DNA of 64,000 nt from NCBI RefSeq assembly GCF_035083965.1, contig NC_089723.1:30879193-30943192 (forward strand), given 5' to 3'. The position numbers and the translations under genes were made by a program. Positions within the stretch are counted from its first letter, which is position 1. Each line of letters starts with the position of its first letter. Shown here one piece after another: positions 21,561 to 61,876 of this stretch. The notes under the pieces are model-generated. The model ran no database searches. It worked only from the letters and a program-made list of their open reading frames with translations, and had not been told where the DNA came from. Source of the stretch: Branchiostoma lanceolatum (Eukaryota > Chordata > Leptocardii > Amphioxiformes > Branchiostomatidae).

Positions 21561-21572
21561 TGAAGAATAATC

Positions 21573-25250: not shown

Positions 25251-28200
25251 ATGTGTTCGGAAAGGTGCCAGTTGGCCATCGGGGCTTGCAGAATAATCTG
25301 TTACAGCGTAAGTATGGAGAAAAATCCATCGGAAGATTGCAGCATAATCCATTTTGTGAAGCCCCCCTCCCCACCTGCAGACAGCGAGTTGTAGCTATCG
25401 GTTTGTCGTTTAATTAACCGAAACATATTGTAAAGGGTAAGCTAGGATGTTCCTGTCAATATTTTTTTCGTACTATTGACATGATGTTGCTATCAATAAC
25501 TTGAATAAGATTTTTTTGGCAATATTAACGTTTGGTAACATAAATTCGGGGTTTTTCCGATAATGGTTGACTGAAATCAATCTAGCAGAACAATAAACCA
25601 TCCTTTTTTTCTATAATTCTGTCAGTATCATGTACTATCTTTGCACTAATCATATATATGGTAGATTTTGTCTCTAGTTGTGCTGACACCATAATATTTC
25701 AACTTGAAACTACCGTCCGCCGCACGTACAATGACAGTGCTGTCGGACAGGGGGGCACATTAATTCGGGAGAGAAGATTCGTCTTGAATATCTTACCGCT
25801 AATCACATTTTATACAGCAGCTATTCGTTCCATCCTTGGCTTGAGGAGAGTGCTATAGATATAGACGTGTCCAAGTAAAAAAAATACACGAAAAAACGGC
25901 CTTACCGCACACATCAGGCCAGTTCGGGAACAACCCGTGTGTTGAGTCGGTATAACTTCACTCAAAGTCGGCCCATCGTCATCATCGGGCAACGTGTAAC
26001 GTTCCATTATTCATGGAAAGTTAGCTGGATGCCGTAGCAATGGTAATACTACTATGTCCATGTGTTCCTTGTTGTGTTAGGAGCAAACTTTGAGGAAAAT
26101 ATCTTCCTCAGTCCACTATCACACGCAGCATTTAGACAAAAAAGTGTTCCTCACAAACCTTTGTCGTCTGCTTGACAACAGGATTCTGGTTAACAATATG
26201 GCGGCGGGAAAATACACGTGCCGTAGGTTGTAGCAACAGAGAGGAGTTTTGATGATTGATCACATTTAGAATCCAGTTGCAGGTTAGCAAAAGAGATTGT
26301 AATAAGTTGTCTTGTAAATAATTGTGTTTAGCAGGAAGCGGATGTGAAATTTTTCTTATTAACCAGCCGACAACCATGTTGTGTAATTCTCCCATGAAGC
26401 CCTCAGACTGTTCCAATAAGGGACGGAGAGTTTTTGACCTCGTCGCCTTATAATCCATGCTTATCGAAGCTTTTCAGACAGTGTTCTGAATACGTAAGTC
26501 TGTCAGGTTTGCATTTCTAGCGGTATTACTTATGTTGCATCTAGCACATATCCCTAAATACCCCGTTTTCGACAAATCCCGAATTTAAGTACCCTACGAA
26601 TTTATGTTACCCAACGTTAACAGGTTGTTCCTGTCAACAAAAATATTTTTCTGCTATATATTTGATATTGTGGCGTCGTGTGGCGCAACTGTAGAACACG
26701 CGGCTGTCAAACAAAGGGTCCCGGGATCTAGTCCCAGGTGCGCCCAGAGACATGTCCGAACTTGCGCCCCGACGTTGTGCCCTTGGGAAAGGCACTTAAC
26801 ACGGCTATCCTCACTTCACTCAGGTGTAAATGAGTACCTAGCTCTTCTAGGGTTAGGGACGTCCCTCGGATAGGACGTTAAATGGAGGTCCCGTGTTTGG
26901 GGAGAGCCACACCCGGCGCACGTAAAAGAACCCACCACACCTTTCGAAAAAGAGTAGGGGCATGCCCCGGTGTGCGATGGTCCAAATCCTTCTATCTGGA
27001 GTTGGTGATTCACTACAAATCACCCGGATGGAGGCCTGGCGAACCTCCGTCTCGTATTAGCCACACGGTGATTTACATCATTCACCCGGGCGGGAGATCT
27101 GGCGCATCACTGTCTTGTACGACTGCCAACGAAAGGGTATGTCACCCCGTAAAGGGGCGGTATAATCCTACGCAAGGGGCCAGTTCTGGCCTGTGCACGT
27201 ACTACTACTACTACTACTATATATTTGACATGATATTACTAGTACTGCGTACTGTCAATAACTATAGCGTTATATTATAAGAATGTTCGGCACTATAGCA
27301 GGATGTCCATGATCCTGTATACCCTAACTCTTTATTGAACCCTAACTCTGAGGATTATCTTGTGAGATGCTGCAACAACAGACTAATTGACATTCCTGAG
27401 CAAGTCAAATACCTCTTGGTAGGTTTCCAATAAGTCACACCATGCAAGTATGCACTTTCAGCTGGTTTATTCTTGAGCTGGAAAGACACTTTCCTAGTCT
27501 GCCAGGTTGTCTCTCGAGACCTCTTTGTTATGCATGCGTGCTAGTCAGGTGAAAATGAGTACCTCGGATATAACGTTAAATGACGTGTTTGGGGAGAGCC
27601 ACACCCCACGCATGATAAAGAACCCACCACACCTTTCGAAAAAGAGAAGGGGCACGTCCCAGTGTGCAATCGTCCAAACCTTAGTCAGTAAGAAGGCTAC
27701 AAAAGTCTTCAGCAAGTTGAAGTTGGTAACCTCAAAATGAAGAAGAAAGAAAAGAAGAAGTAGTCTATATGTTAATGCTGCTAACTAGCATCACATGTTA
27801 CAGACACGTTATTCTTCTTTCCCTTCCCCACAGCTGTACAGAGCGGTGTGCTGTTGCACCCCTCCCGCCCCCCGACCAGAGTACCACGTGGTGTGCCTGG
27901 GGATGTCCGGTGCTGGGAAGACCACACTTCTCACCCTGCTGTGTGGGGAGACCACAGATGACATCGAACCCACCTCAGGTATTGTCTTGTCTTGCCGTTA
28001 CTGCGCACACTCTTGTTGATGAGTATTATCGCAAGTAAGTAGTGCATCCTGCTCATAGTCGTTCCAGTTACTTTATATCATGTCCAGTGTCCAAAAAAAT
28101 CATAGTCTGTATCCAATCCATGTCAGTATCCAAGGGAGGAGGGGGTCTTATTTCCCTGCTGCTGTTTAAACTGGACCTGTGGCCGCAACCACCGCCTCCA

Positions 28201-31200
28201 CTTCGTCTTTGTGGAGGTTGTTCCAGTCCCGGATGGTTCTGGGCAGAAAGGACTCTGCCCTGTACAGTGTTCTGGTCTTAATCCTTGTGAACTGTTCAGT
28301 GTACATGCGGCGTCCACGCGGAGGTGCTGGGACTATCTTGTCCCTTATGACCGGACACTCGACGAGACCATCTCTGATCCTGCAGAACACCTCGAGCCTT
28401 TGTATCCTGCGTCGCTGCTCAAGCGATTCCCAGCCCAGTTGTAGCAACATGCTACCCACACTTGACTTGTTGTGGTAACGGTTCAGCACAAACCTAGCAG
28501 CCCGTCGTTGTACCGATTCCAACCTGGCAATGCTCTTCTGGGTGTACGGGTCCCATACACTGGACGCGTACTCTAGGAGTGGTCTAACAAAGGCTTTGTA
28601 AGCCTTTTCCTTAATACTGGTAGAACTAATTTTCAGGTTTCTTCTGAGGAAACCCAGGACCCTGTTCGCTTTGTTTGCCATGTTGTTGATGTGGTGATCC
28701 CACGTACCATCGTGACTCATTGTGACTCCTAGGTACTTTACTGTGCGGACTGTTTCTAGGGTGTGACCATGTAGTACGTAAGAACGGGATAGTGGTGTCC
28801 TACTCCTGGTAACCGCCATGGACACGCACTTGGCTGGGTGGAACTGCATGTCCCAACTCCTCTCCCATTCTGCAAGGTGTTGGAGATCTTGTTGTAGTTG
28901 GTCTTGTTGCTTGCTGTTTACTACAACCTTATACACTGCTGTATCGTCCGCAAACAGTCGAGCCAGTGCTGTCAACTTCTCTGGTAGGTCATTTATATAT
29001 GCTAGAAATAGGCTGGGACCTAGTACAGAGCCTTGCGGGACTCCAGACCTGACTTCTACGAATGAGGAAAGGTGTCCGTCAACCCGGACCGCCTGGCACC
29101 GATCTTTGAGGAAACTGTCTATCCATGACAGCGCGGTACCTTGGATACCGTAGCGTCGGAGCTTGTGGATAAGCAGACTGTGGTTGACGCGGTCAAACGC
29201 CTTTGCAAAATCCATTACAAGGACGTCGGTCTGCTTTCCACTTTCCAAGTTGGTCGTTATCTCCTCTGAGAAGTCCAGGAGCTGGCTCACACAAGAACGA
29301 CCTGGTCGAAATCCGTGCTGACTGTCATTCAAGATGGAATAGGTTTCAAAGTGTCGCATTACAGAGCCAACCACAATGTGCTCCATAATTTTGCATACAA
29401 TACATGTCAATGATACGGGTCTATAGTTAGCAGGGTTATATTGTTCTCCTTTTTTGAAGATTGGCGTGACATAAGCCCTCCTCCAGTCCTTTGGGACTGA
29501 CCCCGTTGTTAAAGAGGACTGAAAGATGACTGTGAGTGCTGGTGCTAGCTCATATATGCATGTGTGGTGTGATGTTGCATAATAGCAGGGTTTGGGGCCC
29601 AGAACCCAGGGGTCCTGGGTTCGAATCCCCTGACATGCCCCGACATTATGCCCTCGGAAAGGCACTTTACACGAATTTCCTCACTCCACCCAGGTGAATA
29701 TAAGTATTTACAAGTAGCTTTTGTTAAGGATCATGTCCCTGGGATAGGGCATTAAGTGGAGGTCCCATGTTTGAGAGCAGCCACACCTCAAGCATTTAAA
29801 AGAACCCACCGCACTTATCAAAAAGGGGAGGGGTCCTTCCTGGTGTGACTGTGAGTACTTGAGTGGATCAAAATTCAAATAAGTCTGCCCAGATATACAG
29901 CTTGTACTGTTCATTATATCATACCCGGGTTAACGTTATCAACTGAGATCAGATTTTGCCAAAGATTATTGCCATGGGTTATGTCAAGAAACTGTATTGT
30001 TTTCTGTCTCACACAAATTTCCAGAGACTCAAGCTCTGTTGGTAAAGATACATTGCACTGGCAGTACTTAGTAAGAACAGCAGAGGTCTCTTTTAGATTA
30101 CCAACACTTTTACATCAATGAGATACTAGTATATGCCACATTTGTACATTTGTCTTTTAGTCTTACTGATGAGCCATTGTGAGGAATAGAAAAAAATATG
30201 TTCATAAAAGATGTACCTTATTCTTATGATAGTACTAATTATTTTATCAATTGTATATTTTACAGGTTTCAATATCAAAGCAGTTCAGTTTGAAGAAGCC
30301 ATTCTCAATGTGAAAGAAGTTGGAGGCAAGTAAAAACTTGCTTATTTTGTCTCCTGGCTTTGGACTGGGTCCACTGTTGTTCACCCCTCTGTATATCTCC
30401 ATCTAAGAAGGTCTATAGATCATGTTGCGCAGAAGGGGTAGGCTTATCATACTTTTAGCAGATATAATCATTTCAATCCCTAAAAACTGCTGTTTAGTCA
30501 ACAATTCAAGAATTCCCATTGTCTAGCCGAAAGAAAAAAACAACAGTAACACTGTAACACAGTAACATATGTAATTATCAGGAAACAGGGTCCACTGTGC
30601 GTCCAGCTGCAAAAGAGGGCGTCTAAATTCTTTGTTATTTTAGTATATGGCATCCAAAAGACGCATGGATGCATAGCTAGCCAAAAGTCTGACCATACAT
30701 ATCTCTGATCTAACCAGGTGGGGAAAACGTCAGACCATACTGGGACAGGTACTACCAGCACACCCAGGGGGTGGTGTTTGTCATGGACAGTGCCTGTACC
30801 CAGGGGGACTTACAGACTGTGGGCAGCCTCCTCGTCGGCATCCTATCCCATGAGTCCCTGAGAGGGCTTCCATTCGTCCTTCTTGCTAGCCACCAGGACA
30901 AGACAGAAGCAAGGAGCTCTGAACAGGTAAGGCTCTAAACCTTAAGGAATAGCCAGGGTATCATCCTCCATTGCTACTGCTGGTTGAATATCTTTTAGCT
31001 TGATCATGACGGAGCAAGCCTGGGAAGCTCAGGACAAATTTTGTCCCCAGAGCTTCCCACAGTACCCCACATCTCCCAGGCTGCAATGGGGTCAAAGAAA
31101 ATGCCTCTTCTTGTATTAGATGCCACAGATGCCATTATTTGTGTTCAATTTGAAAAAAAAAATTAAGAAAGAAAACAATAAGACTTTTTTCTGAGCAAAT

Positions 31201-34200: not shown

Positions 34201-37200
34201 ACACAGGGTATTCCGTATCACCCGAGGGCGATCCGACCCGCGGGAGGGCTGGGACCGAGGGTGATGCGGAATACACCGTGTTGTATTTTATTTATGTCAT
34301 ACCCACCCGAGAAAACACCATTTCAATGCGTAATGCGCCAAAAGTTGAGGGAGTTTTGTGTCCTCAAACACAAAACTGTAGCAACATTGATTCCAACCTG
34401 CAAATCCCGTATTCGAATTTTCGATTGTGGCGCAACCGGCGCGCTCGAAATGCATTCGAAATATTCTATGGAAGCCTGTGTGATACAACTCTCGAACCCT
34501 ACAGTATGTAATACGGATAGTTATCACACGGTCCGGAACACCTGTATCAGGCCCAGGTATGAAATAATCCAGATTGCTGTAATCTCAATTGTTATTTCCT
34601 AGAAGAGCCATAAGACGTCACGAAAAAGGACAGAGCAGCTGCTAGTAATCACCACTTACTTTGACAATATCAGTTCCAACTTGCGTGTAATACATGAAAA
34701 TCCTTGTCCAGCACAGGGCTTAGATAATAATGCATTATGATGACGTACATGTGATGTACTGTATTGTAGGTCTTAGCCAAAGCCTTATCTTTTTCTCCAT
34801 TGCCAGGTTACATACAACATCAACAAAAAAAAACAAATTACGGTATTAAAAGTATAGAATAAAGTGGATAATTAATGAGTTGTCTAATGATACCTTTGTC
34901 ATATCACAGCTTGTATCCAAAATATGTAAAACCTGTGCATATTCGGATTATAGTTGACAGTAAATCTTGAAATGTTTACGGCATTGTTTTTTTTAGCAAC
35001 CTCTCTATTGCGAAATCATGACTTCAAGAGATTAAACATATGTCCATTTCATCACTTCTGTACAGCGGAATTGTTTCAACTGCAAATTTAAAACATAACA
35101 AAAGACTCCTTTCTCCTACTACTGCAAAAGAAATGAGTATACAGTATGTGGTTACTTAGAAATTATTGTACTGGAACTGCGAGAATGGGACCAGGTGTCC
35201 TCACATTTCTTTACAGCCAGCTACCCTTTGATCTTACATTTTGAGAGGTATCATTTCTGATTCTTAAATCTTCAGGTGCGTCGATATTGCGTGCAACCTT
35301 GAAAAACGATTTATGGTGTAAAATCCTTGACATTTTGCCACAAGTATCAGGGAGTATTTTACAGATTAACCCGAATGTTGCCCTTTCGACTGAAGCTGTT
35401 TCGACGTAATTTAAGAAGCACATCAAGCCAAAGCCAAATCCTTTTCCACATTGCTTTGGTTACCTCTGATGTCAACGGAAATACAGATTACCTGTTGATG
35501 ACTGCCGTATATCGTAGAGAATATTTCATGGATAAAGGTTGACCAGTGGTATCAAAGTCTTCTCTGAATGATATGCCAGGTTATACCCAGCATATACCAC
35601 AGATTATCATACGCTCAGGTAGATATCGTTGACCAATCAGAAGGCTCCATTTGCGGGTCTGTAATCTTCATACAGACCCGAAAAGCAGATCTGTAAACTT
35701 CGTATGGACCCGCGGGTCTGTAAACTTCGTATGGACCCGCGGGTCTGGAAACTCCGTACGGACCCGGTGTTCGAACGTTACCATTAAATGACAGGAGGTT
35801 TTGTTTTTATATTTCATGTTAAGACAAATACTACACAAATCAAATACAACACAAAGTACTACTAACTACTATATGGATAATGGCTATATGATAATAACGT
35901 TAATGACCCGCTTTCCTTCGGTACTAGTATAGACTGAAGGAAAGCGGGTCATTAACCCTATATTAAATTATTTGCAGACACATGAAGAAAAATATGTTTT
36001 AAGTTGGTCAACCCATTACAATTATGTTCTCAACAAAAGCATCAGTTTATGTCAATTGTTAAAGGTTTTGTCTGTACACACAAAAGGTCTATTCCTCCAA
36101 TTTTGTTCACGAATTTGTCTCAATCCGTTGTGCCCACGCGACTATTCAATGTTAAGCTACGCCCATGATCTACTAATGCAGCACTAACACCACGAGATCA
36201 ACACTTTGACGAACGACAAATGTCAAGTAGATGAAGTATATGTCACTTATATTGGTAACCGCCTTTATAAGGTCTCACACGCCAGTCAGGCCATCCCATA
36301 GGAAATAACGTTAAAACACGAACCTTTCATGGCTGTAATTCCAATGAAAACACAGAGCTTCCGGAGATGTTTTACTTTCTATTGCAAGCACACACAATCT
36401 TTAGACAATGAAAAAATTGTCACCAAAATATAACCTATGGAGCGATCTGTGATGGCATTTAAACTGCCGTTACCTGCCAGCCGCAAGAGGCTTTCTGGTG
36501 CCGAGAGAGCCCGATCGCAGTACTCAGGTCAAAATAGCGTGTACGTCGCTTGGATGCCGAAACTTTCCTGCCTTATCCTGTCAGAGATGAACAAGCTTTC
36601 ATCTCAAATACTTCTTATATCAGGTGGGATCGATCAAAGGCAAATTATCATTGACTTAAATACCTGACTTTAGGGCCCAATTTTTTTTTTAGCCCGCACT
36701 CTTTTGGCATCTACACGCGGAGTAATACAGGCATGAGACCATAATTTGTGGCATTTGTGATGTACATTGTATTCTGTGATAGAATTACTTATATTGGTAA
36801 CTGCCTTTATAATTTGTGGCATTTGTGATGTACATTGTATTCTGTGATAGAATTACTGTGAAGGGTCAAATTTATGCCATGGTATAATGTTTGCATTGAC
36901 CTCTTTGCCAAGAACTTAAAACCACCGGGAAAATGCTTGTTCTGTCTCCTGCCCGCCGACTACCTTGTTTCAACCACAAACTAAAAACCACCGCAAACAC
37001 TCCATTTGTCCCTGCTCACACAAAATGCTTTCACTTTTTTTACCTAGTAGGCTGGTTTTACATTTTTGTCACATGGCATGAAGTGATTTACACTGGATTA
37101 TACAGAAATTGGGTCCCCTTTTGTAATACATGTGATATCTTTCAGCTGACCAAAGACTTGGAGCTGCAGAAGTTGTGCGCCGGGCGACAGTGGGCCGTGC

Positions 37201-37304
37201 ACCCGTGCTCCACGCAGGACCAAGGAGCAGTACGACAAGCTCTGGAGCAGTTTGTCACATTCCTCTTGAACACCGGCAAGGAAAGCGAAGAAAACAGGGT
37301 GTAG
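25251..37304 (+). CDS. ARL15: ARL15, ADP-ribosylation factor-like GTPase 15
   Basis: Exons: 25251-25307 (tentative first exon), 27834-27978, 30266-30325, 30718-30926 and 37146-37304 (stop TAG). All phases agree and the product is 209 residues; human ARL15 is 204 from memory. A Cys cluster (CCC) lies at about 25-27, where vertebrate ARL15 is lipid-modified. The P-loop is GMSGAGKT (42-49). The switch II region reads NVKEVGG instead of the Arf WDxGGQE, so the usual catalytic Gln is absent, a known ARL15 trait. The base-recognition motif is SHQDK (145-149) in place of NKxD, again as in ARL15. ARL15 acts at Golgi and endosomal membranes and has been linked to magnesium transport by CNNM proteins. 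Intron 3 has a GC donor. The last stop codon abuts a transposon. Exon 1 (MCSERC to CYS) is the least certain part. Confidence 0.9.
26665..27005 (+). mobile_element. SINE family 1, full length, in ARL15 intron 1
   Basis: Head with tRNA-like start (GTGGCGCAACTGTAGAACAC) and B-box-like GGGATCTAGTCCC, then GTTGTGCCCTTGGGAAAGGC, AAATGAGTACCTAGC, GGGACGTCCCTCGGATAGGA, AAGAACCCACCACACC and TTTCGAAAAAGAGTAGGGGC. This is the cleanest copy in the window and the best reference for the family. Confidence 0.88.
27535..27690 (+). mobile_element. SINE family 1, internally deleted fragment
   Basis: Matches the second half of 26665-27005 (AAATGAGTACCTCGG, GGGGAGAGCCACACC, AAGAACCCACCACACC, TTTCGAAAAAGAGAAGGGGC). 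Confidence 0.75.
28050..29560 (-). mobile_element. 5'-truncated non-LTR retrotransposon (Jockey/CR1-L2 type), RT intact
   Basis: One uninterrupted minus-strand frame (28166-29665, 499 codons) carries a full reverse-transcriptase domain. It includes NPANYRPVSLT near residue 77, HGFRPGRS (117-124), VMDFAKAFDRVNHS (150-163), SGVPQGSVLGP (207-217) and the catalytic FADD (238-241). It then has a CR1-like C-terminal region with SFLPRTIRDWNNL. The endonuclease domain is missing, so this is a 5'-truncated copy that cannot move on its own. The first roughly 37 residues come from reading antisense through the adjacent SINE and are not part of the element. The lack of stops or frameshifts over about 460 codons suggests a young insertion. 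The 3' end lies near 28050, where CTGACATGGATTGGATAC follows the stop on the minus strand. Confidence 0.93.
29560..29925 (+). mobile_element. SINE family 1, full length, abutting the LINE
   Basis: Head with B-box GGGTTCGAATCCCC, then ATGCCCTCGGAAAGGCACTT, AAGAACCCACCGCAC, AAAAAGGGGAGGGGTCC and the tail ACAGCTTGTACTGTTCA. The LINE's truncated 5' end meets the SINE head directly. Confidence 0.85.
32545..32800 (-). mobile_element. SINE family 1, head half
   Basis: Minus strand: tRNA-like head with B-box-like GGGTTTGATTCCTGAC, then GTTGTGTCCTTGGAAAAGGC and AAAAATGGGTACCTGAC. Related head halves are at 39548-39775 and 54075-54200. Confidence 0.7.
34194..34287. mobile_element. Short palindromic MITE
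   Basis: Arms AATACAACACAGGGTATTCC then GTATCACCC, mirrored at the right with few changes; 94 bp overall, GC-rich centre. Open frames crossing it are palindrome read-through. Confidence 0.8.
35653..35767. repeat. Tandem cluster of self-complementary units
   Basis: Three to four copies of a roughly 30-bp unit, GCGGGTCTGTAAACTTCGTA then TGGACCC, in which GGGTCTG-type and CAGACCC/TGGACCC-type ends pair. The cluster forms a run of hairpins whose stems share the core GGGTC/GACCC. Confidence 0.85.
35899..35956. repeat. Perfect 21-bp inverted repeat
   Basis: GTTAATGACCCGCTTTCCTTC and its exact complement flank a 16-base loop. No matching second copy was noticed in the window. Confidence 0.92.
36741..36858. 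repeat. Tandem duplication, 68-bp period
   Basis: The block ATAATTTGTGGCATTTGTGA through TGTGATAGAATTACT occurs twice, with near identity, at 36741 and 36809. Confidence 0.92.
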
Positions 37305-37972
37305 CGTAGCCTGGTATCCATCCTATTCTAGCTCCAGTTCTCTCCTCTGATCGCTTGCCTGTCAAATAGATCGCCACCCGTATCCATTTAAACATTTGGC
37401 ATATATGTCATCAATTATTGCGGCTTTCAAAAATTTTGAATATGAGCGATCGCTGTTTTTTTTCAATGACTGGTGGGCAAAAGGACTGGTTAGCAGGCTA
37501 GATTACTAATTAACATTTGCATTAGCAGATCAAATTATTGATGAACGTGTAAATTGATCTTTTGCCGGTGAACTCTCCAAGTAGAGGTTGGTGGAGGAGA
37601 TAATAACTTTTTTATCATATGCACCGTTTTCTGTCGGCACTCTTCACCAACTGCTTTATGCCTACCACTGCTTCACCGTGACATCATCTGGATTAGCGTA
37701 AGCGGGGATTAAACTTTTGTATGCTCCCCATCATGATCACCATGCCCTCTTCTTCTTATTTTCTACTGCCAAGCCTGATAGCAATTAGATTATCGGCAGC
37801 CTGCCTTTCAGAGGACTGCGTGATTTGGAGCCAATCAGAGCTATCGCCTAGACATATATTTCACATGAAAATTCAAATGCCAATCAATCGTCCATTTAGA
37901 ACGTGACATACCGTTCGGTTAGGAAGCGATCAGAGGAGTGAAACAGATCCAGAATAGGATGGATACCAGGCT
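37305..37972. mobile_element. hAT-like element inserted at the ARL15 stop codon
   Basis: Terminal inverted repeats of about 50 bp start TAGCCTGGTATCCATCCTAT on the left and are complementary on the right. Both sides carry the 8-bp duplication GGGTGTAG (37297-37304 and 37973-37980), typical of hAT-type insertion. The left duplication ends in the TAG stop codon of ARL15. The interior contains a degraded copy of the CTCCAAGCAGAGG fold-back family at about 37570-37655. No transposase frame is present. Confidence 0.85.
37570..37655. mobile_element. Fold-back MITE, 'CTCCAAGCAGAGG' tip family, copy 4, nested
   Basis: ACTCTCCAAGTAGAGGTTGG, then a centre with ATCATATGCACC and TTTTCTGTCGGC blocks matching copy 1 at 266-367. 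The right tip is decayed after TTCACCAACTGC. It lies inside the element at 37305-37972. Confidence 0.75.
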
Positions 37973-39397
37973 GGGTGTAGTTTGTAACATTACACAATCA
38001 GCTTCTGAAGCAATGTGGAAAGTATAAAAATTCATCAGCAAAGATTTTGTGATTTGTGTTGTGAAACTGACATTATGCTGTAAACAGCTGCAATGTGAAA
38101 CTATAATGATGATACAAAAATTGGGCTGAACAATGAAGTTGCTGCACTTCTCATATGATCAGATGGCTATTATTTTATTTTGATATGTTTAATTTTCATT
38201 GCTCTGTGACTGTCATGTACATGTACTTTCAAGTTCCGTGAGTTGCGTTTTATTTAATGACTACAAAGTGTGCCTTACACTGAAACAGGATGTTCAGTGT
38301 GTCACAGGATGTCTACCATGCCAGTTGCTATGCTAATCCATGCACCCTTTTTTCACAAACCTATATATGAGAAAAATGCTATTTATTAGTTGCTTTGCTA
38401 TGTAGAGAGCTAGGTTTTTATTTTTCTAGGAAAAGTAACATTTGTGTAGGTGTGTTGTGTACAGTTGTGAGCATACTTCTCCATTGTTTATGAACAAAGC
38501 CTTCTATCCAACTTGTGTCTGGCTGTATGGACCAATTACTGATCAATTGATTGATTACTTTATCTTTGTAATGCTCATTTGTCATTAACAGACTTGAATG
38601 TGTAATTAATAATGTAAAAGTAACAATTACAACATTTTTTTAAATTTGATAGTTTCTTATTGTGTGAGCAAATGTTAGGGCAATTGGCTGGAAATCACAA
38701 CTTTGAAATAGGGAAGATGTGATCATAATGTAGTACTGTTGACATGCTGGAAAATAATTTGATACCTCTTCAATTACATCCCCTTTCCACTACAGCCTGT
38801 AACTGCTGAGCCACTACTATTTAAACCAAGAAGTCTTTTTATGTTTTGTATGTTTTGTTGTCTTTTAAATCATACTTTTGTACCGTGCAGTATTTTCCAA
38901 TTAAAGAATTAAGGGTCAATTTTCATCACTTAACGGTCGCTCATCAATCGCCGTATGGTGGAAAGGGGGCCTTAGAGTTAGAGTTAGAAAAAAAATGTCC
39001 TGAAGTTTTCTGAGTGTCTGCAGCAGCTGATTTGCAAGTGTACCCCTCTTTCTACTCTTTTCTACTGCCTGTCATAATTTCATAACAATACAATCATTGT
39101 ACAAAACTGCCATTATGACATCATGGTATTCTTAATTTGAAAGTGCTCTACTTGGGTGTTGTGAAAGTGGATTATTTTGACTTTTTACATACTATAATAT
39201 ACAGTAGTAATATATTATATATTGTGCTTGATAAGTTAGATAATAACCATAGCCATTTTGAATTTTAGGCCGTAGGGTCCACTGTGGCACAGGGCTGTCT
39301 CCAGCCTGTCCCTCCATCCTGGGATAGAAAATTGCTTGTTGGGACGGACAAAAATTTCACCTGTCCATAAAAAAAACTGACTTTCATGACATTTACA

Positions 39398-39483
39398 TGA
39401 TTAAAACATATTTCTGTAAGCTTAAGATGACAGATTTAACTGATTAAAGCATATTTCTGTAAGCTTAAGATGACAGATTTAAC
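39398..39483. repeat. Tandem duplication, 43-bp period
   Basis: Two adjacent copies of TGATTAAAACATATTTCTGT to CAGATTTAAC with one change. Confidence 0.93.
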
Positions 39484-39547
39484 AACAAAATCAACCTCAT
39501 GAGATCCCAAACAATTAGTGTGACAGAAACATTTAAAAGCTGAAGAC

Positions 39548-39775
39548 AGCACTGGTGTGGTATTGGAAGATGGAGCTCATCCCACTTGTCATGCTCTTTA
39601 TCTCCCCATCCAAAGTCATCAGTCAGGTGCCCATTTACACGTGAATGGAGTGAGGAAAGTCGTGTTGAAATGCCTTTACCCAAGGACACAACGTCTAGCC
39701 AGCAATGGAACCTGTGACCTCTCGATCCTGTGCCCACTGGCCCAACCACTAGGCCATCGGCCTTGACAAGCCCTA
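39548..39775 (-). mobile_element. SINE family 1, head half, minus strand
   Basis: Reverse strand gives the CCAGTGGGCACAGGATCGAG head region, GTTGTGTCCTTGGGTAAAGG, then AAATGGGCACCTGAC. Similar to 32545-32800. Confidence 0.75.
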
Positions 39776-40027
39776 GGATATTCTTTGAAGGGTTTCCATG
39801 TGAAGAAAAAGGCACCACAAATGTTATTTTAAAGGGCGTGCGTACCTCAGTCTTATGCATATACACTCTTGTCCTGAAAAATTCAACATAGCCTTGGTTA
39901 ACCCTCAGTCTCCAAAGAGGCCACCGAAGTCAATGTTTTACTATTTCTGTTAAAAGTTACTGTTTCTGTCATACTGCTTAAAATGATATTGAAAACTGGA
40001 GCCATAAGAACATGGTTCGTTCTAGCC

Positions 40028-47677: not shown

Positions 47678-47880
47678 GATTGTCACCTCCATGAAATATG
47701 GAGGTATTGTTTTGTGTGTGTGTGTGTCTGTTTGTGTTTCCGGATATTTGTGGTCAGCGAAAGTTAAAAGAACCTTAAGGCCTCTGGATGGATTGTAATG
47801 ATATTTAGCAAGTGGGTGAATGTTGGGAAGACGAAGGTCAAGGTAGATTTTGGGCCCTTTGGTGTGTGACCTTGTTCCTT
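47678..47880 (+). repeat. Hairpin-ended dispersed repeat, variant with a different hairpin
   Basis: ACCTCCATGAAATATGGAGG starts it, followed by TATTGTTTTG, a GT run, GGATGGATTGTAATGATATT and GGGAAGACGAAGGTCAAGG. The order of blocks matches copies 1-3 but the tip hairpin differs in sequence while keeping pairing. Confidence 0.65.
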
Positions 47881-48085
47881 TGACAAACAGTCAGCAGATA
47901 TTTAAGAAATTTCTCAAAAGGTATGTCAGTGATTGAAGAAGATACGGTAGCATCAAAGACTGGAGGACATAAGTATCATCTATCCTTCGTGGCAAGTGGC
48001 GTCTTGAACAGAGATAAATTCGCCCTTGAAGGACATTGCATCTAGTTTTCAATGTCAGATGCACAGACAATTAATCAAAGGAATG

Positions 48086-48125
48086 TGTTTTTGTCACCAT
48101 GTTGTGCGCCATGGTGACAAAAACA
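48086..48125. repeat. Perfect 16-bp inverted repeat
   Basis: TGTTTTTGTCACCATG and its exact complement separated by 8 bases. Confidence 0.9.
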
Positions 48126-48331
48126 TGCCAATCTGCAAGTATTGTCACGCCTCTAAGACTTGATGATTTATGTCTGAACAACTCAAGTACGTTTGAAGAT
48201 AAAATAGCCTTGAAAGTAGTCTTAAAGTCTGCATTTAACCAAGACTATTAGTTATAACCTCCTTAACTTAACCTTTAGCACACTGAAGTAGCAATTTGGC
48301 TATGAATTCTCTATTGCTTGAGGGGTTAGGC

Positions 48332-48467
48332 TCGCCTGGAGTCCAGCCTTTTTAGCTTTAGTCCGCTACCCAAGCTCTACTCCCCACCAAGAGATGTCAA
48401 AAGATGCCTTGGCGGAGAGCGGAGCTTGGGTAGCAGACTACAGCTAAGAAGGCTGGACTCCAGGCTA
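48332..48467. mobile_element. 'GCCTGGAGTCC' hAT-like MITE, short form
   Basis: Ends CGCCTGGAGTCCAGCC and GGCTGGACTCCAGGCTA, with arms of about 60 bp including TACCCAAGCTC and complement. Flanking TTAGGC occurs on both sides with a one-base offset. It is the compact relative of 19990-20483. Confidence 0.82.
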
Positions 48468-48559
48468 GCATTAGGCAGCAGGGAGAAGGTTAAAAACTAC
48501 TATTCCATGCAAAATGTATTTCGAACCAGAGGCTAAGTTTCCAAAGTCTTCCATATGTG

Positions 48560-48770
48560 AAAGAACAAAGAATCTACTGTTTGTTCTACTACATGTATGT
48601 CCTGTAAGTTCAGTTATTTCTAAAACCCTCCTGACCATTGACTTAGATTTGATAATAGCGTTGGGAACTTTCTTTTTGGCCCAACTTGTTGGTTTTCTTG
48701 CATCAATTTTGCAGTGCCCAGAGGATGTCATTCATACAATCAAATCAGTATGACATAACACATACACATT
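48560..48770. repeat. Dispersed repeat, copy 2 (partner at 42218-42400)
   Basis: See the shared block order given for 42218-42400. Lies just after the MITE at 48332-48467. Confidence 0.65.
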
Positions 48771-50405
48771 TCCAAGGTGTAAGATCATGTACCAGTAGGT
48801 TAGGAAGCACTTAATGTTCTGATATCATCTACTATATCCTCCAGAAACTCCCTTTTGGTAAAGACCACCCTAGGCAAAACATGTGGGTGGGGCTGTTAAT
48901 CCCTTGTGCGTGTGTTGATGATACAGGTGTATTTACAAGGTCAAGGGCAGGGCAGTGCAGTCCCACAGAGCAGCTTAGTGGCCACAGCCCAGTCTTGTTC
49001 ATTAAACACACAGTGTCTCAAGCCATCCGACACTGTAGCCCGTATACAAAACTTGTCCTCGCGTTACCAGCATATATCTGTACAAAAGCTCAGAGTTTCT
49101 GAACACAACATCAGGTAAAGGTACCGGTAAAGAGAGTTTAGGTACTGGTCTGTAATAAGTACCTGTACCTGAGCAATTCAACAAAGTAACCAGTCCTGTG
49201 GTCTTCAATGATGACTGAAACAGTAAAACTGAATGAGGACTTTTGGTAACACCTACATGTACATTGTACTCTCGCTAGAGGATCTCAAAGCACAGATGGG
49301 TCTGATTTCAACACCCATTCAATGTTTTCATGTTTTTCATCTTTGTTGTAGGAGTATCGTTACTGTTTGACTTTTATCAAATAAGATGATCATCATATTT
49401 GATTCAATTCAGGTACAATGTCATTATCGATATAGATATACATTTTGTATTTTGGACTTTACCAAATTGACATGACTTAGGGCTTTTTCTGAAGAGGAGA
49501 AGATGGGTGATGCATCCACTTACCCTGGGCATAAGATTCAGATTGCCCAGAGATGCTACTAGACCACATGTTGCCACAGCATCAACTGTGACCTGTCTAA
49601 CAGTAATTTTCCCTCTCAAGAAGCCTTAGAATACCCCCATTTTAACTTTAAAATCTCTGAACTCCACACCTGAGAAGGGGGAAAATCTACACCGACCCCC
49701 ACTCTGTTGCTCCACTCCCTCGCACCACCATGCAATTTTTTCCAGAAAAAAATGTTATTTTCGCAGTACCGTATCGGTACCCCTAATCTGTACTGCTGTT
49801 TTACATGGCCTTTCCTTGACCCTTGCCAGCCACGACTGTTTTGGACCCACCTCGGTCCCCAAACAAATTACAGGGCTGCTTGCCAGGTCAGCAGATGCAA
49901 GGAAACTGTCCAGTCCCAGCGATCGTGAATGTTAAGAATCTTGTTTATAGCATGAGCTGGTGGGGAAAGAGTGTCTGGCTCTCCAGGGGCGTAGGCACGG
50001 GTTTCCCATACATGGAAACGCTTCTGCGTCTGTTTGGGACACGTTAAGCAGTCAGGGGACGACCCGAGGACTAACGGCGAAGAAACCACTGACATTTCTG
50101 AAGGTCCTACAATACGCTAGATAGCTATGCTGTGATACAAAACATTCACTCTCCGCAAGAGTGCAGACAATTTTTACTGACTGCTACTGATAAGATATAC
50201 AGACAGTACAGAGTTGGAAATGGTCCACACTGAAAACTTCCATACAAACTTCATACCCTTGTACTTGTAGTGCCTAGTGGAACATAGGGCAGCATGTTTT
50301 CTTGCAGTCAACTTGTATGAACAACGTATTGATGAAAATAATTTCTTTCTCCAAACAGTATGGATCAAAGACAAACACACACTGATAATAGTGATATGTT
50401 CACTT

Positions 50406-50411
50406 TTTAAT
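50406..50411 (-). terminator. Possible poly(A) signal of NDUFS4
   Basis: ATTAAA on the minus strand, about 168 bases beyond the NDUFS4 stop codon. It is a common variant signal; no stronger AATAAA was noticed nearby. Confidence 0.35.
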
Positions 50412-50578
50412 TTAGATACAGACACCTGAATTAGACCACATCCCACAATTTAACCTCTTCCGGTCTTGGTCAGACACATGCATCAGTTCTAGAGTGTAAT
50501 GAAATAACAAAAAGACATAAATTCTGTCTAACACATTTTTTGCTTACACGTCAAACCATTGAAGATACGGACTAGATA

Positions 50579-53500
50579 CTACTTGGTAGACACTCGCGTT
50601 TTCTTGTCCCAGGAGAAGTTGGCGCCGTAAGACTTTGCTTGCATTCTCGGTTCACGCTTTTCTTCCACCTCCCAAGACCAACCTAATATAAGAACAAAAA
50701 TATGAAAAGTAATTATCATAACAATTTGAAAAGTTTAAGTTATTATTGAAAGTTTATTGCAAGTACATGAAACATGATATGACAGATAGACAATGGATAA
50801 CAATATATACCACGTGACTATTCTATTCTAAATACTGACACTAAATTCTAACTTATTGGGTTCGACTTCTTTTTCTGAGACAGTGGAAGATGAACGATCC
50901 CACTTTTTCTGCAATGTGTGGGTTTTGTGATGTAAAGAAGAGGAGAGTAGTTTTTTGTCTGTAAACATTATTTTTTCTGCTCTTACTGGCTCTTACAAAT
51001 GTACCTCATTGTTGTTTAGTGTCAATGCATGACAAGAACCTCTTAAGAGATCTATTTTTCATCCATTCAAGGTTGATTTTATCTTTAATGTACATTCATC
51101 AAGGGAATTGGACCTACCATTTCTGTCACAGTAGGCCATAGCATCCTCTTTGGAGTCAAAGGACATTGTGACAGCCAAGTTGGACAGGGGATCAGCCCTG
51201 AGAAACAGAGGAACATACATTGTAAATGCTATAAGTCTGTACGTATCTGTATCTGTATCTACATATAACCTGCATCTATATAGCCAGTATAACCGCCCTT
51301 CAGCGCAACAGACCACAAGTCACCACAATAGACCAATTTGAACGACACAAACTGATTTCGTCATAGGGGGAGATTTTATACATAAACTGTCTATGTCATC
51401 GCACACGTCCATTAAGAATGGAATATGTTTGAATGACGTTCCGCGAACGCTGACCGGTGTCACTGAGCCCGGCATCTCACAGGTACATTTGTATTCACTA
51501 CCCCCGGGCGGCCCAGCGCTTGCACACATGCCTGCTTTAAACGTTTCAGCATATCGCTATGCAATGTCAATGGCTATTTTCCTTCCTCACTTACAAAAAA
51601 TGGCTTATTTTGTACTTATCTGTCATAAATCAGTCAAATTGTAATTGAACACCTGCTAATCGAACACCTGCCTCCTCTGGCTTCGGGAAATGTCATTCAA
51701 AAGTGTGCAATGATGTGGCAGTGTTTGTGTATAAAATCCCCCCCCCCCATGACGAAATCACTTTGTGTCGTTGAAATTGATCTATTAAAGTCATGAAAAG
51801 AACTTGCAACATCTTCCATATAACTGAGGCTGGAAAATCCACTAAAGCATTAAATGATATGATCTGTGATGAAATCATCATGCATGTACAGTACTTCAAA
51901 CATTACCACTAGACAGTATGAAACCTATGGAATAATGCTATACAATACATGACTGCCATGCTGATTTCATAAAGTTTGATTTCGATTATCATTCATCTCA
52001 TACCAGCAGACATACATAAATGTAGAAAAGAGCATCTACTACTAAAAGTCTGGCCACAAATTGTGTGCGACAACGAAAAAAAGGAGGTCTGACTGCCGTA
52101 AGTTTTAGTATCATACCCATAGTCTCTATGTCTGACACGCCCCTCTTATTTTTTAAATTTTGATGAACATTTGATTAACGGCCTCCAAAAATGTGCCTGA
52201 ACTACAGATTATGACTGCTAGGTCTGTAATTTTAGCAACCTAAACTCCCCCCCCCCCTACATCTTTCTGCTGATTTGTGGGCGTAGTAAGAGATGGGGAG
52301 GGTTTTATTTGGGGATTAGTCTTGGCTCCATGTCTGCAAGTCTTCAGGCGATACTTAAATCTCTGCTGCATTCATCTTAAAGGATTGGCACTGTAATAAT
52401 GCCCTTGGGAACAGCAATGCTTCATGCAACTACACGTGATTCATAGACCTTGATTTCAGCAAGGACATTATAATTAATAATTTTATTTGCAAGTTCTTGC
52501 CCGAGGGCTACTTGCAACATGAAACAATGCATAGCAAGGGTATACTGTACAGATAGTGCGAGTTAACAATGTTGACAAGTAGAACACATGGCTATTCTAA
52601 GAACTACTATGGAATACAATCTACGCTTTCTGGGTTTGACTTCTTTTTTGGAAGCAGTGGAAGACGAAGTGTCCCACTTTTTTTGTAATGAGTGGGTTTT
52701 GGGAGGTTAACAGCTAGGGTTCTAGTTTTCTTTTCCTCAGTAAACATTTGGAAATTGAGGTAAGTTTATAATGTCCTTGATTACAGGAACACAAAAAGGA
52801 CTACATGAGTGTAAGTCTTGAGCCATACATATGCCAGACTATAATTTCACTTTTTGTGTACATGTACCTATTTTCACTAGAAAAAAGTAGAATTAGAATT
52901 TCAGATGTAATCTTTAAGCATCAAGCTGTCTGAGTGTTGCAAAACTGTAGATATTTTTATGGACTTCAATACACGAATAGTTACTTTTCCATAAAGAATC
53001 TTTATGAGTTCCCTGGTGGCAAGACAAGGAAACAGGACAGGACTTTGAGACAATGATATCATTATCAGTACTTACATGTATACTTAGATGGCATTGTTTT
53101 AATGTGGCTAATGACAAGAGGTGGTAGGCCATGCAAGGTTGTTGGCCGGTCAGTAGAATGAGACAATATCCCACACTCTTCTTTATCAATTTTTTCCTGT
53201 AGGACTTTACAAAATTTTATTAGTTTTTTGGTACTTTCAGAGCCTCTCCTTCAAATACATTTCAGGATCATGTGGTGCCCATATATCAAAACCAAATGAC
53301 CTGAAATTTGGAAGAGGGGTTGGGCCTATGGGCACAGGACTTCATTCGCATTTTTTGCATAGACCATTTCAATTCAAAATGATTTACTTTAAGTATGTAG
53401 CTATGTCTGTAACTAATTTCTGAACTTATTTTTTATTGTCTCATTGGCTCTCTATTGGGGGAAAACAAATGGAAAAATTGCAAAACATTTAATCAATTTG

Positions 53501-55398
53501 CAATTCACATATAGCATACATGTATGTAATACAGGAAGCTTTTAGTATTATGCAACTTAGCTGTTGACTACAATTGACAATACCAGTGTCCGACCATGAC
53601 TTCCAATTAAAACTATGAGAATCATCTTATGTCATGGTATGGCCTTGATTGACATAAAAGTTTCATTATCAATTCCCATAACTGTAAGAAAGTATCCCAA
53701 ATCCCAAATGTTCATTTGATGTTCTTTTAGTGCTTTTTAATAGAGGAAGTCCAGTACTTTACTTAGGTCTGCTGTAGTACTGATGTCAATGACCGGCCAT
53801 CATTTTATCAATATCAAAAATTGTCAAGGTCAAAGACTTTAATCATACATAATCTCATTATCCTTTCATTTCAATTTTTCTTTATATTGTAAAAAAAAGT
53901 TACAACCATTCATATCCATGTGAAAGTGATCTCGAACCAGTCTAGAGCACAGAAGCTGAGAAGGGCTAATCTTCCACTGGTAATGACAGAAAGATAGGCG
54001 CTATGTACAGTAGCTACAGGTTCATTCCACCAGAAAAATTCCCCGAGTTCTTTTTGGCAAATGCAATAAACAGTGGACCACAGCATAACGTCTCGTCCTG
54101 ATGACTGATACCCTTTACAGTAGCCTGCATCTTGGGCTAGCTGGGATTCAAACTCCTAACCTCTTGGTCCAGAAGCCTGGTCACTCACCGCTGTACTACA
54201 TTGTACACATCCTACCACAATAGCATTGTTAATTCTAGACATCTTAATGCTACATTCTATTGACATGTGTATTATCTTACAAAAGTCAAGACTTACGAGG
54301 ACCCCCATCCCATGAGTGGGTTCTCCCATCTCTCCGTAGTGTTGAATTCTATCTTCCACTGGCGCGTGCCGGCCGAGCCGGACTGCATGGCGTTACGCGC
54401 GGGGACATAGATCCTGGCCTTCCGCGTGGAGAGCTGCTCCTCAGGTACCCCTGACAATGGGGCCAGCTCCTAGATAGACAGAGTGTATATTGTTACAATA
54501 GGAATGATATATAGTAAGCTGGCAGGATATATTCTATAGCATGTTGTTAAGCAAAGAAAACGCATAAAATCAATATTAGACCACAAGTGGCATTGCATGG
54601 CATAATGGCAGGGTGTTTGGCCCAGCACCCAGAGGTCCAAAATTTATCCTCAACCAATTTACACATCAAGTCATAGTGTTTCAAGACATAATGTCCTTGA
54701 CTGAAGGTAGAGCCTGGGACTAACCAGGTTGACACTCAGGCTACTTCATTACACTACACTTCTCACATACTAAGTATATGTTTGTGCAAAACAACAACAC
54801 AGGACATACCACTTTTTCCTCAAAGGGGGTGATCTGTTTTTCTTCCGTGGCAGTTGCAGATGGACTGGTCTCTTGGGATAGATTCCTTATACAGGCAGCA
54901 GCAGCTCTGAAGAACGTTTCAAAAGACATGCAGCAGAGTGTTAGTTTCGATTTACATTCGTAGATACAGATTATGGGCTATTATCCAGAAAGAAAATTAT
55001 AGAGTAGAGTGTGATAGGCTAGCGCTGAGGGGCGAAAGAATTGGTTGTAACTCACGGAAAGATGTGTGTTGCAGCAAACTACATGGCATGGACGTAAAGT
55101 AGACAGCGCTCTACAAGGCTCTAGCTTACATGTAGGTCTAGGTACCTAGTATAGTAGAAAATCTAGAAATACGTTTGGAGACGCCCCCCTCCCCACTAGC
55201 TACCCAGCTTAGGTCAACCACTTCGTCGCGGATTTTCATACATTCCCAGCAACCTACGACTTCAAATTTCCTCAACAACTTGCGTAAGTTGGTACACATC
55301 ACACAGAACTTTGTTAAAATGCTAACATCTCACCTGTGCGGCCGTACGAAGGCGATTCCCGCTGTCCTCAGTAGTCCGTTTCTCAGCAAGGACGCCAT
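50579..55398 (-). CDS. NDUFS4: NDUFS4, complex I 18-kDa accessory subunit
   Basis: Complete gene, five exons on the minus strand: 55398-55334, 54906-54810, 54469-54297, 51197-51118 and 50682-50579 (stop TAG). All splice sites are canonical and all phases agree; 172 residues against 175 in human. The N-terminus ([20 protein letters not shown]) is a basic, hydroxyl- and Arg-rich mitochondrial targeting sequence. The mature part has the family signatures [52 protein letters not shown] and the terminal TRVSTK. NDUFS4 sits on the N-module of respiratory complex I in the matrix and stabilises assembly of the NADH-binding arm. The C-terminal RVST is the reported kinase target in mammals. Start chosen at the only ATG of exon 1, in the context AAAATGG. 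Confidence 0.97.
50750..50960. repeat. Repeat pair member in NDUFS4 intron 4
   Basis: Shares with 52475-52750 the order TTTATTGCAAG/TTTATTTGCAAG, CATGAAACA, GGGTT(C/T)GACTTCTTTTT, CAGTGGAAGA, TCCCACTTTTT and GTGGGTTTTG. It resembles a retroelement 3' end; the family is not identified. Confidence 0.65.
52475..52750. repeat. Repeat pair member in NDUFS4 intron 3
   Basis: Partner of 50750-50960, same orientation; slightly longer, with GCAAGTTCTTGCCCGAGGGC near its start. Confidence 0.65.
54075..54200 (-). mobile_element. SINE family 1, head fragment
   Basis: Reverse strand: GTACTACAGCGGTGAGTGAC, CCAGGCTTCTGGACCAAGAG, GTTTGAATCCCAG (B-box). The body is short or lost. Confidence 0.55.
54590..54735 (+). 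mobile_element. SINE family 1-like head, degraded
   Basis: GCATGGCATAATGGCAGGGT, TTGGCCCAGCACCCAGAGGT, then AATGTCCTTGACTGAAGG. Lies in NDUFS4 intron 2. Confidence 0.5.
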
Positions 55399-58140: not shown

Positions 58141-61100
58141 TCATCGACTTTCGTCGTCTTCCCCATCGGTGAAACTAGCTGAAGAACTTCCCGCTTCGCC
58201 CGACATGGAGCCCTCAAAGAGATAGGCGTCCGTCATCATCGGCATTCTATCTGAAAGGAGAAAGTATGAATTGAATGATTCTTTGTAGAAAACTTGATGA
58301 ATAACTACATGTACCAGGGCACAAAGCGATCTGCACACGCAATTGCACAAACATTAATACATGTATCATCCCAACATGTCCGTTCTTCCAAACGAGCAAT
58401 GGCTAACCGTTATCTAGTATAGCCTTTCATAATGTCTGTTACTAAAGATTTGGATGAACTGTCGACTCCATCTCATAGTGCTTATTGTGTCTTGTCAGGA
58501 TATGTTTTTTCCTGGAACCGATGTTCAGCGAATCATATGTTTGTTATGCATGGTTTTGTCGGATTGCTTTGGAGTTGGAGGATTGTGGAAAGATAGATCT
58601 AGAATCGGCTTCAAGTTCTGCCATTGAATACGACACCCTTAATCTTTCGGTTGACTGATTTTAGTAAAGTTCATGTCATAAGCAGGCGCTCTGTATCAGG
58701 AGAACCCACACCCTATCCACATCATACTGCCCTACTACTATTTCAACTACTGACATCGTTGTCTATGCTTGAAAGTTCATCTGTGTTGGTGGAATGATGG
58801 CATCCATGCTTTCGCGTCGATAGGGACGGGGTAGTACACCATAAACTTTTGATCTACTGGTCACCGGACTACGTGTTCTATCTGCATAAAGTGACGCCAT
58901 GGAAGCGGTCGATTGCTTAACAAGAAAAAAGACTGGTGCTGCAACATGTTCAATGGAAAGTCCCACTGCAATGCTACTAAGGAATATCTTTATCTTGCCT
59001 GTCATTAGTGTCAAGGAATACATCTTACCTCCCGTGCAACGTCCCATGTGCTTTGTCTCGATGATGAAGCCTGTTCTGCAGGACGTCTCTCTCATGTCAC
59101 ACCAGTCGGCATACGTCACGCCATCCGACCCGCAGATCGGGTCTGACGGAGATGCTTTGTGGTGTGAGCAGTCCATCCCACATGTCACGCACCGCGGGTT
59201 GTTGTTCTTGTCCACGAGACACCGTTTCCCTCTCCCGCATGCCAGCCCATCGCAGGTCATCGACCCTGGGTTAGAAAAGAATCTGTTACCTAAACTGTTC
59301 GGGATTACCGTCGGCTAATGCACCGCTAGACCACAATCTTAGCATAAGCATGGTTTTAGGGGGGCGTACCGCAATGTTTGCGTGGGATGTTAGAATGTCA
59401 AAGAGCACGCATGGGCAGCTGCCATGACCGAGCAAGACAGCACTACCACTCGATTGTTTCTGGTCGGTTCCCCGTAAACAAGCACGGTGACCCCGTCCAT
59501 GTTCGATATTGTAATGACGATGACAGACATGTACGTTGTCTGTTTAACGTCACGGCTGTCTGTTTGTCTGCTCGTCTGAGGGGAATGTATGGACATCTTC
59601 AGCGACTGATATCCGCTTGTGTTGGTGGTCCTATCCATAACATGTCTTGATCAAGTGGCGCTTATCGCGACAGGGTAACCGCAAGCCCTAAGCCCCGCGA
59701 TGGCATGCCTGATATGTCTGGTTACATCAAGTGTTTTACTTAACAGGCGGCGTACAAGGAATGTACAAAAGCTGGGGGGATTTGCCACTGCTTCACTGCT
59801 ACCCGTTTTAGGACTTATATCCTCTTACAGCTGGAGCAAATCAGGGATGTTGCGGTTGTGTATAAGGGTATTCTAGGGAACTCACCTCTGCATAGCCCCT
59901 TGTAGGCAACGCCAATGGTGTGGCCGGCTAGACAGGTTGCCTCTCGAAGGTGGCACTCACTCGGATACGTTACACCGTCAACCCCACACACCGCGTCCGC
60001 GAGTGACGGGGTTGCAAGGCAGTGGAACTCACAGGACACACAGTGGGGCGTTTCGTTCTGGTCCATAACACAACGGTTCCCCGGTGGACACGTCACGTCA
60101 CCGCACGAAGCTAGAAAATTTCGATTCAATTGGTTATAGGGACCAATTGTATAATACGATGACATTAGACAACCATTTTTTGTCCTAGTACAACCTAATT
60201 ATTGACATGAGAGGTCATCTATGTTGGAATACAACGTTATAGAAGACATGTTCAACTGCATCCGGACCCGGCCATCAACTTTCATTGGACCGGGACGGGG
60301 GCTGCTACCACCTACCACCTACCTTTGACCCGTTGCTCAAATCACGTCACGCTTCCGGGAGGTGGCGGGTTTTGAGCAATCGGGTTATCAGTTATCCTAA
60401 TGAAGAAGATTTTGAGGATTGGTCTAAAAGTAGGTGAGTCCAATCTCTGAGATGTAAAATCTGTCCACGACAAGCTAATTATCAGTCATGTTACATCTTT
60501 AACTGTAAGGGCGTTATATCTTACTTTTGCAAATGCCGTTGTAAGAGACCTGTAGGTTCGGTTGAGACAGTCTGCACTTGGTTCTCAGGAGGCTGCAGTA
60601 CGTTTTGTACGTCTTGCGATCCGTCCCGCAAACGGCTCCCCGTGTGGGTGGGTCCGAACAGTCAGGTGAGCAGACACATCGGGGCTTGTTTCTTCTGTTC
60701 ATCTTGCAGCGCTTGTCTGGTCCACACTCAACATCATCACACGTCTCTGTTATAAAGTGATGGATGGAGAAAAAACGTCAGTAACGTTTAGTGCTCTCTC
60801 TACTTTGCTTTAGCCTCCGTAGCAGGCTTTTTGTTTTTTACTATCATGTGCTATTTTCTGATTGTATATTGTGTTCCAATTGGTACCGTGCTTCTGACAG
60901 CGTTCAGCCTAAAAAGACGCCGAATGGGTGCAGACATTTTGGTGTGGGTGCCATTCGATTACTACCGATGCACCTACAATCGCTGCCCTGAAAGAAAAAA
61001 AACAGGGTAGCGAGTGTAGGAACCCCTTGTAGTACTTGGATGGCACCCAGGCTACAGACATTTGGCTGGGCGGCTGTTAAAAGTTTAATAGCAATCAGAA

Positions 61101-61876
61101 GACTGATGTACAATCAGGAAACGGCACTTACGCCTAAAAAGAGTCTAGCCAGGAAGCCTGCTATGGAGGCTATCGGCTTCAAGTATGGTCGCCAGCAAGG
61201 TCTGCATTTCATTCTTTTAAAAGCCACGAAGTTAGTTTGTCACGCAGGTGTTGGGAAGAGCAGTGATGAGGCACAATACTACTGTACCGGTCGAGGATGG
61301 AAGCTTACACTAGAGACTATGGTGATGAGGAAACAAGTCCACCCTAAGCAATTTCTCTTGAATTCCTTTACTCATGATGTGCTAGGATGCTGGTCTCACG
61401 GGGTTTCATGTAGGCAAAGTAAAATTAGTAGGGTCTAATAAATGTTTCCGCTATATTAGATTAGATAAAGAGACAAGGCTGGTACTGTTATTTCAAAAGC
61501 ATGAAAGTTGTAAAATGAATTTTGTCACCTATGACCAGATACTGCCATCAGGATCATCTAAGACCACCATGCAGAACACTTACACTTAGGTTTTCTTAGC
61601 TTGTCTTTCATGGTACCCACCACGCGGAGAATTTAAAGTGTAAGCACCAACTTGTATAGATGCACTTACCCTCTTCAAACTCACCTCGGCAAGGCTCGCA
61701 GCCGGGCGCGCCATCACCGAACGCTCGCCACTTGAAGAGTGTTCCCAGGTCGACGTCCTCCTCTGTGTAGGCGATGCTGACTCCTCCAGATCTACAGCAC
61801 CCTTCCTTAGACACGAACGCCTTGATCAGGCCTTGGCACTTCCCGTTCTTGGACATTGTCGTCCAGCAGTGTCCAG
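58141..61876 (-). CDS. FST: Follistatin, signal-peptide exon not found
   Basis: Five exons, minus strand: 61876-61685, 60746-60525, 60110-59886, 59265-59029 and 58250-58141 (stop TGA). All introns are phase 1 and canonical, the pattern of exchangeable extracellular modules. Exon by exon they encode the N-terminal domain (GHCWTTMSKNGKCQ, EEDVDLGTLFKW, APGCEPC), FS1 (TCDDVECGPDKRCKMNRRNK), FS2 (SCGDVTCPPGNRC, CGVDGVTYPSECHLREATC) and FS3 (TCDGLACGRGKRC, CGSDGVTYADWC), then an acidic Ser-rich tail (FTDGEDDESR). Vertebrate follistatin has the same N-domain plus three FS domains and wraps activins and some BMPs to block receptor binding. The basic stretch in FS1 matches the heparin-binding site. 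Not FSTL3, which has two FS domains. The secretion-signal exon must lie beyond 61876 and is not identified. Confidence 0.96.
60250..60415. repeat. Inverted repeat in follistatin intron 2
   Basis: TGACCCGTTGCTCAAA and GTTTTGAGCAATCGGGTTAT form an imperfect inverted pair around an ACGTCACG centre. Lies in the intron between FS1 and FS2. Confidence 0.5.

Follow-up and report, generated by a model that had tools for sequence, protein, structure and literature searches.

The window that we analysed, a stretch of 64,000 nucleotides of Branchiostoma lanceolatum DNA, encodes FST, NDUFS4 and ARL15. Read on the minus strand the three genes run FST>, NDUFS4>, <ARL15: ARL15 and NDUFS4 face each other tail to tail, and FST lies upstream of NDUFS4 and is read the same way. 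Together they span 25251-61876, bounded by the presumed start codon of ARL15 on one side and on the other by the 5' edge of the exon for the N-terminal domain of FST (Table 1). We picked out open frames by eye, built gene models from exons linked at their splice sites, and ran the products against Pfam and PDB sequences. Nine of 10 window proteins matched at least one Pfam family (one of these below the cut-off) and one matched none. Identity to the PDB namesakes over aligned residues was 48.5 % for ARL15 (79/163), 63.2 % for NDUFS4 (79/125) and 49.8 % for FST (143/287). The order and orientation claimed for the reverse strand in the original prediction, FST(+), NDUFS4(+), ARL15(-), are thus seen directly in the exons and in the Pfam and PDB matches.

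Table 1. Features of the FST-NDUFS4-ARL15 block, with positions in the window and the support for each.
Feature	Position	Strand	Support
Putative ARL15 exon 1 (MCSERCQLAIGACRIICYS)	25251..25307	+	ATG and in-frame GTAAGT donor only
ARL15 exon 2, P-loop GMSGAGKTT	27834..27978	+	splice joins, PDB alignment
Reverse-transcriptase open frame, 504 codons, in ARL15 intron 2	28169..29680	-	RVT_1 6e-36
ARL15 exon 3, ends at GC donor	30266..30325	+	splice joins, PDB alignment
ARL15 exon 4, switch II EVGGGEN across exons 3-4	30718..30926	+	splice joins, PDB alignment
ARL15 last exon and stop	37146..37304	+	splice joins
Interval between ARL15 and NDUFS4 stop codons, 13,274 bases	37305..50578	.	no protein gene detected
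Full-length 5S rRNA-like element	40680..40800	-	Rfam RF00001, 60.9 bits (gathering 38)
NDUFS4 exon 5, ending KTRVSTK and stop	50579..50682	-	splice joins, PDB alignment
NDUFS4 exon 4	51118..51197	-	splice joins, PDB alignment
NDUFS4 exon 3	54297..54469	-	splice joins, PDB alignment
NDUFS4 exon 2	54813..54906	-	splice joins
NDUFS4 exon 1, basic N-terminus	55334..55398	-	in-frame join to exon 2
FST follistatin-domain 3 exon	59029..59265	-	Pfam, PDB alignment
FST follistatin-domain 2 exon	59886..60110	-	Pfam, PDB alignment
FST follistatin-domain 1 exon, basic KRCKMNRRNKPR run	60525..60746	-	Pfam, PDB alignment
FST N-terminal-domain exon	61685..61876	-	FST_N 2.6e-20, PDB alignment

The FST gene (61876-59029, minus strand) consists of an FST_N domain and three follistatin domains with one exon each, which Pfam reports as FST_N and three Kazal_2 stretches, and the three joins between these domain exons are all in phase 1. 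Among PDB sequences the product is nearer to follistatin than to FSTL3 (306 bits over 2-291 versus 150). There was no candidate for the signal-peptide exon with an accepted donor in 61880-64000, and that exon may lie beyond the window. The 3' end was inspected in one translation only, and the FST model stops at 59029. The NDUFS4 gene is complete in five exons (55398-50579, minus strand). Its product matches the Pfam family NDUS4 (PF04800) at 7.6e-38 and a PDB sequence at about 179 bits, the alignment to 5lnk_c reaching the last residue, and it ends in TRVSTK as in mammals. Judged by eye, its basic N-terminus looks like a mitochondrial targeting peptide.

ARL15 lies on the plus strand, where four of its exons are certain (27834-37304, stop codon included). 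The product matches the Arf family at 8.4e-37 and among PDB chains is closest to ARL15 itself, with 180 bits to 8f6d_B; ARL3, the family next in rank, reaches 99. A hallmark of ARL15 is the replacement of the Gln in the Arf GGQ motif. The alignments show this catalytic Gln replaced here too: the window ARL15 has EVGGGEN and the PDB ARL15 ELGGADN, where ARL3 has DIGGQRK. The exon 1 at 25251 is putative; five candidates fit the pattern ATG-to-GT[AG]A[GT], and this is the sole one with GTAAGT. A search for this exon with the N-terminal 16 residues of human ARL15 gave its top score inside a minisatellite, and this hit was discarded. Intron 3 begins with GC instead of GT (30326-30327, GGAG/GCAAGT) in the reading that keeps the frame. 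The reverse-transcriptase frame in intron 2 belongs, by inference, to a non-LTR element. Intron 4 holds a 149-codon open frame (33220-33666, minus strand) whose codon score of 19.0 is coding-like and which has no Pfam match.

The gap of about 13 kb between ARL15 and NDUFS4 had been described as gene-free. This stands for protein genes, of which neither the codon-usage scan nor Pfam detected any, and has to be amended for the 5S-like element that lies inside. The scan gave no signal clearly above 20 block-shuffled controls in 37305-50578 except at this G+C-rich element; four weaker peaks of 11.0-12.8 fall among the highest values that the controls gave (3.3-13.0), and the positive controls, being the exons used for training, show only that the scan runs. 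The interval contains ten stop-to-stop frames of at least 100 codons; none of the seven that were tested had a Pfam match at E 0.1, and the result was the same for all ten long open frames tested when three from ARL15 intron 4 are included. Besides the 5S-like element, Rfam at a relaxed threshold returned for the interval a single snoRNA match far under its cut-off (22.9 versus 80 bits), and a tRNA scan returned no match. On the minus strand at 40596-40800 the 5S-like head is followed by a stretch that is 86-89 % shared with 9946-10002, 16069-16132 and 21917-21979 on the plus strand; the element is probably the head of a SINE that shares a central domain with other SINEs. Self-comparison, which detects a repeat only if the window contains another copy of it and is silent on constraint, assigned to repeats 10 % of 37311-50600, 7.5 % of 27780-37310 and 35 % of 1-25000.

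The next genes past the 5' end of ARL15 are three Ctr genes on the minus strand with a GT29 sialyltransferase among them. The former are copper-transporter genes of the SLC31 type at 6633-8209, 9603-10943 and 23092-24733 (Pfam Ctr 1.8e-30, 5.9e-26 and 1.8e-33, in that order), and at the DNA level their copies are 82-86 % alike in the C-terminal exon and 67-74 % alike in the other exon. A tandem segmental duplication at 12613-22320, with pieces that are 73-92 % alike, covers the start of the sialyltransferase exon twice (15549-15821 and 18905-19531, plus strand); the first of these ends abruptly inside the sialyl motif and is possibly a pseudo-exon. The PDB chains closest to the GT29 protein are those of an alpha-2,8-sialyltransferase, which we take to be ST8Sia III. 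Downstream of the sialyltransferase exon there is a long minisatellite with units of 13 and 43-45 bases (20498-21258). Hydrophobic exon-like frames at 302-4031 on the plus strand resemble an MFS transporter; the searches did not confirm such a gene at 0.3-4.0 kb, MFS_1 scoring 25.2 bits against a cut-off of 33.4 and a longer exon set matching no family. On the other side of the block, the FST flank inside the window amounts to only about 2 kb.

The layout had been proposed to be that of human chromosome 5q11. Human FST and NDUFS4 probably lie on strands that match the orientation in the window, and the three-gene order of the human MOCS2-FST-NDUFS4-ARL15 segment is the same. The human block is presumably far larger, roughly 0.8 Mb compared with 36.6 kb here, and its neighbours on the ARL15 side, HSPB3 and SNX18, differ from the Ctr and GT29 genes found in the window. 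Conservation of order with 5q11 seems to end beyond the 5' end of ARL15. Order and the direction of ARL15 are borne out in print. A table of a human 5q11.2 deletion gives, in sequence, PELO, ITGA1, ITGA2, MOCS2, FST, NDUFS4 and ARL15 (PMC11629504), and intron 1 of human ARL15 is placed at 53.52 Mb, at the end away from NDUFS4 (PMC8439666), so that ARL15 occupies the minus strand and points towards NDUFS4. The expectation of no intervening genes holds in the human table, where FST, NDUFS4 and ARL15 are consecutive, and is weakened by the pig: on SSC16, NDUFS4 and ARL15 are annotated around one 115-kb region inside which an extra coding gene, ENSSSCG00000041656, is also annotated (PMC10694980). 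Given this gene, some annotations may not place NDUFS4 and ARL15 strictly side by side. A 4.2-Mb region of cattle BTA20 (24.1-28.3 Mb) contains FST, NDUFS4 and ARL15, given there as a set of genes without their order (PMC11758328).

Long-range regulation across the block, which the original prediction had suggested, gains support from human chromatin contacts. A review citing HUGIn states that in human liver Hi-C the FST promoter touches rs6450176, a type 2 diabetes-associated variant in an ARL15 intron more than 500 kb away (PMC9437546), a statement that occupies one sentence of that review. In a Hi-C study of HPV16-integrant clones, intron 1 of human ARL15 carries a TAD boundary with a cluster of CTCF sites; inside one TAD this boundary makes a host contact with the MOCS2-FST interval, which one clone shows more weakly than another (PMC8439666). 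Taken together, the two accounts sketch a human domain containing FST, NDUFS4 and the greater part of ARL15, and the contacts fit control DNA of FST that reaches over its neighbours. For B. lanceolatum, both the contacts of FST across the block and their role in its survival are matters that we infer. The whole window contained no match to a CTCF consensus with at most one mismatch, where 0.92 would be expected by chance. The three genes had been described as unrelated in function, which is not fully correct. In its GTP-bound form ARL15 opens and activates Smad4 and promotes the R-Smad-Smad4 complex (PMC11063908), and follistatin, an activin antagonist that is also counted among the BMP antagonists (PMC13121700), acts against ligands of the same pathway.

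How the block arose and why it has persisted are separate matters. Under full shuffling only 1.3e-5 to 2.5e-5 adjacent collinear triplets in the same orientation are expected per genome pair, by our own arithmetic for genomes of 10,000-20,000 genes; under a looser rule (a 24-gene window, any order) the expectation is 0.03 to 0.06. Chance is negligible for an adjacent collinear triplet and the linkage was therefore inherited: FST, NDUFS4 and ARL15 are inherited neighbours. That they were brought together by chance or by misassembly, for which one may point to the single contig on which the linkage is seen, is very improbable in view of this expectation and of the fact that the exons found join in frame. 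Gene order alone shows inheritance and is no evidence of selection, a consideration that favours passive retention, in which the ancestral order would have stayed unbroken in two slowly rearranging lineages with no regulatory constraint. This explanation also draws on the reverse-transcriptase element within an ARL15 intron and on the ARL15-side neighbours, which appear to have turned over; the human chromatin contacts that span the block speak against it. It is a plausible account that we would nevertheless bet against. A survey of 49 genomes under permissive rules is pertinent here: in the figures that it prints the vertebrate ancestor inherited 70 blocks, and shuffled genomes gave 110, 120 and 124 (PMC8851819). 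These figures are a warning against a functional reading of loose blocks, and the FST-NDUFS4-ARL15 triplet is stricter than the rule of that survey. Set beside the microsyntenic blocks of Robert et al. 2022 (PMC8851819), the triplet, with the human order taken from print, falls within the pairwise rule of at least three orthologues and at most five intervening genes.

An alternative with a functional basis is that FST, outside the cell, and ARL15, acting on Smad4 inside it, have been kept together, under shared control, through their common concern with signalling of the TGF-beta family. The promotion of the R-Smad-Smad4 complex by GTP-bound ARL15 would suit such co-regulation, as would the fact that FST is listed among the targets of FoxL2 with Smad3 (PMC11063908), but a human cell-line study describes the expression of ARL15 as constitutive (PMC4053963) and a subunit of the respiratory chain, NDUFS4, sits between the two genes; we consider this explanation improbable. 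The reading that we prefer centres on FST. As a developmentally regulated secreted antagonist, FST would depend on control DNA that extends over NDUFS4 and is located inside or past ARL15; its two neighbours would be bystanders held in place, and the whole would form a genomic regulatory block with its far edge near the 5' end of ARL15. In its favour we counted the identities and layout of the genes, the human order, the human contacts, the change of flank past ARL15 and the breadth across mammals; against it we counted the reverse-transcriptase frame in ARL15 intron 2, the zero CTCF-like sites, the extra gene in the pig, the block counts of the 49-genome survey and the source of the human Hi-C accounts, a single review sentence and a single study of HPV16-integrant clones with a weaker contact in one of them. 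On this balance there is about an even chance that the block has been kept at least partly through the regulatory reach of FST over its neighbours, an arrangement of a known type, and an FST-centred regulatory block appears a likelier reason for its survival than passive retention.

The FST-NDUFS4-ARL15 block is a further case of an already known kind of gene neighbourhood. As in genomic regulatory blocks and ancient metazoan microsyntenies, a developmental signalling gene here stands next to a housekeeping gene and a neighbour rich in introns, in a long-kept order. Hallmarks of a genomic regulatory block are an array of highly conserved non-coding elements over target and bystanders and coincidence with a chromatin domain. 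The target in genomic regulatory blocks is a transcription factor whereas here it would be the secreted antagonist FST. FST and NDUFS4 fit the scheme of target and bystander, whereas ARL15, which acts on Smad4, is not clearly unrelated. No description of the triplet as an ancient microsynteny was found in the paper listings and text passages searched, and NDUFS4 in combination with synteny and follistatin gave no match there. A survey of ancient metazoan microsynteny was reportedly made by Irimia et al. 2012, and the triplet may well be present already in its tables.

A follow-up of fasting insulin names ARL15, ITGA2, MOCS2 and NDUFS4 for its chromosome 5 locus, a list from which FST is absent (PMC6448992), and elsewhere the human metabolic locus is printed as ARL15/FST (PMC7511027). 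We raise tentatively, as a proposal that is itself doubtful, that the regulatory domain of FST is older than the vertebrates and has its far boundary in intron 1 of ARL15; the human ARL15/FST signals for type 2 diabetes and adiponectin would then act via FST through an ancestral enhancer landscape that is compact, at about 37 kb, in B. lanceolatum. If retention was passive, the block is another ancestral linkage. If the introns of ARL15 have harboured enhancers of FST from a time before the vertebrates, assigning the intronic variants of ARL15 (PMC9437546) to FST would gain backing, and a 37-kb invertebrate locus would make a small test bed for the human metabolic locus.
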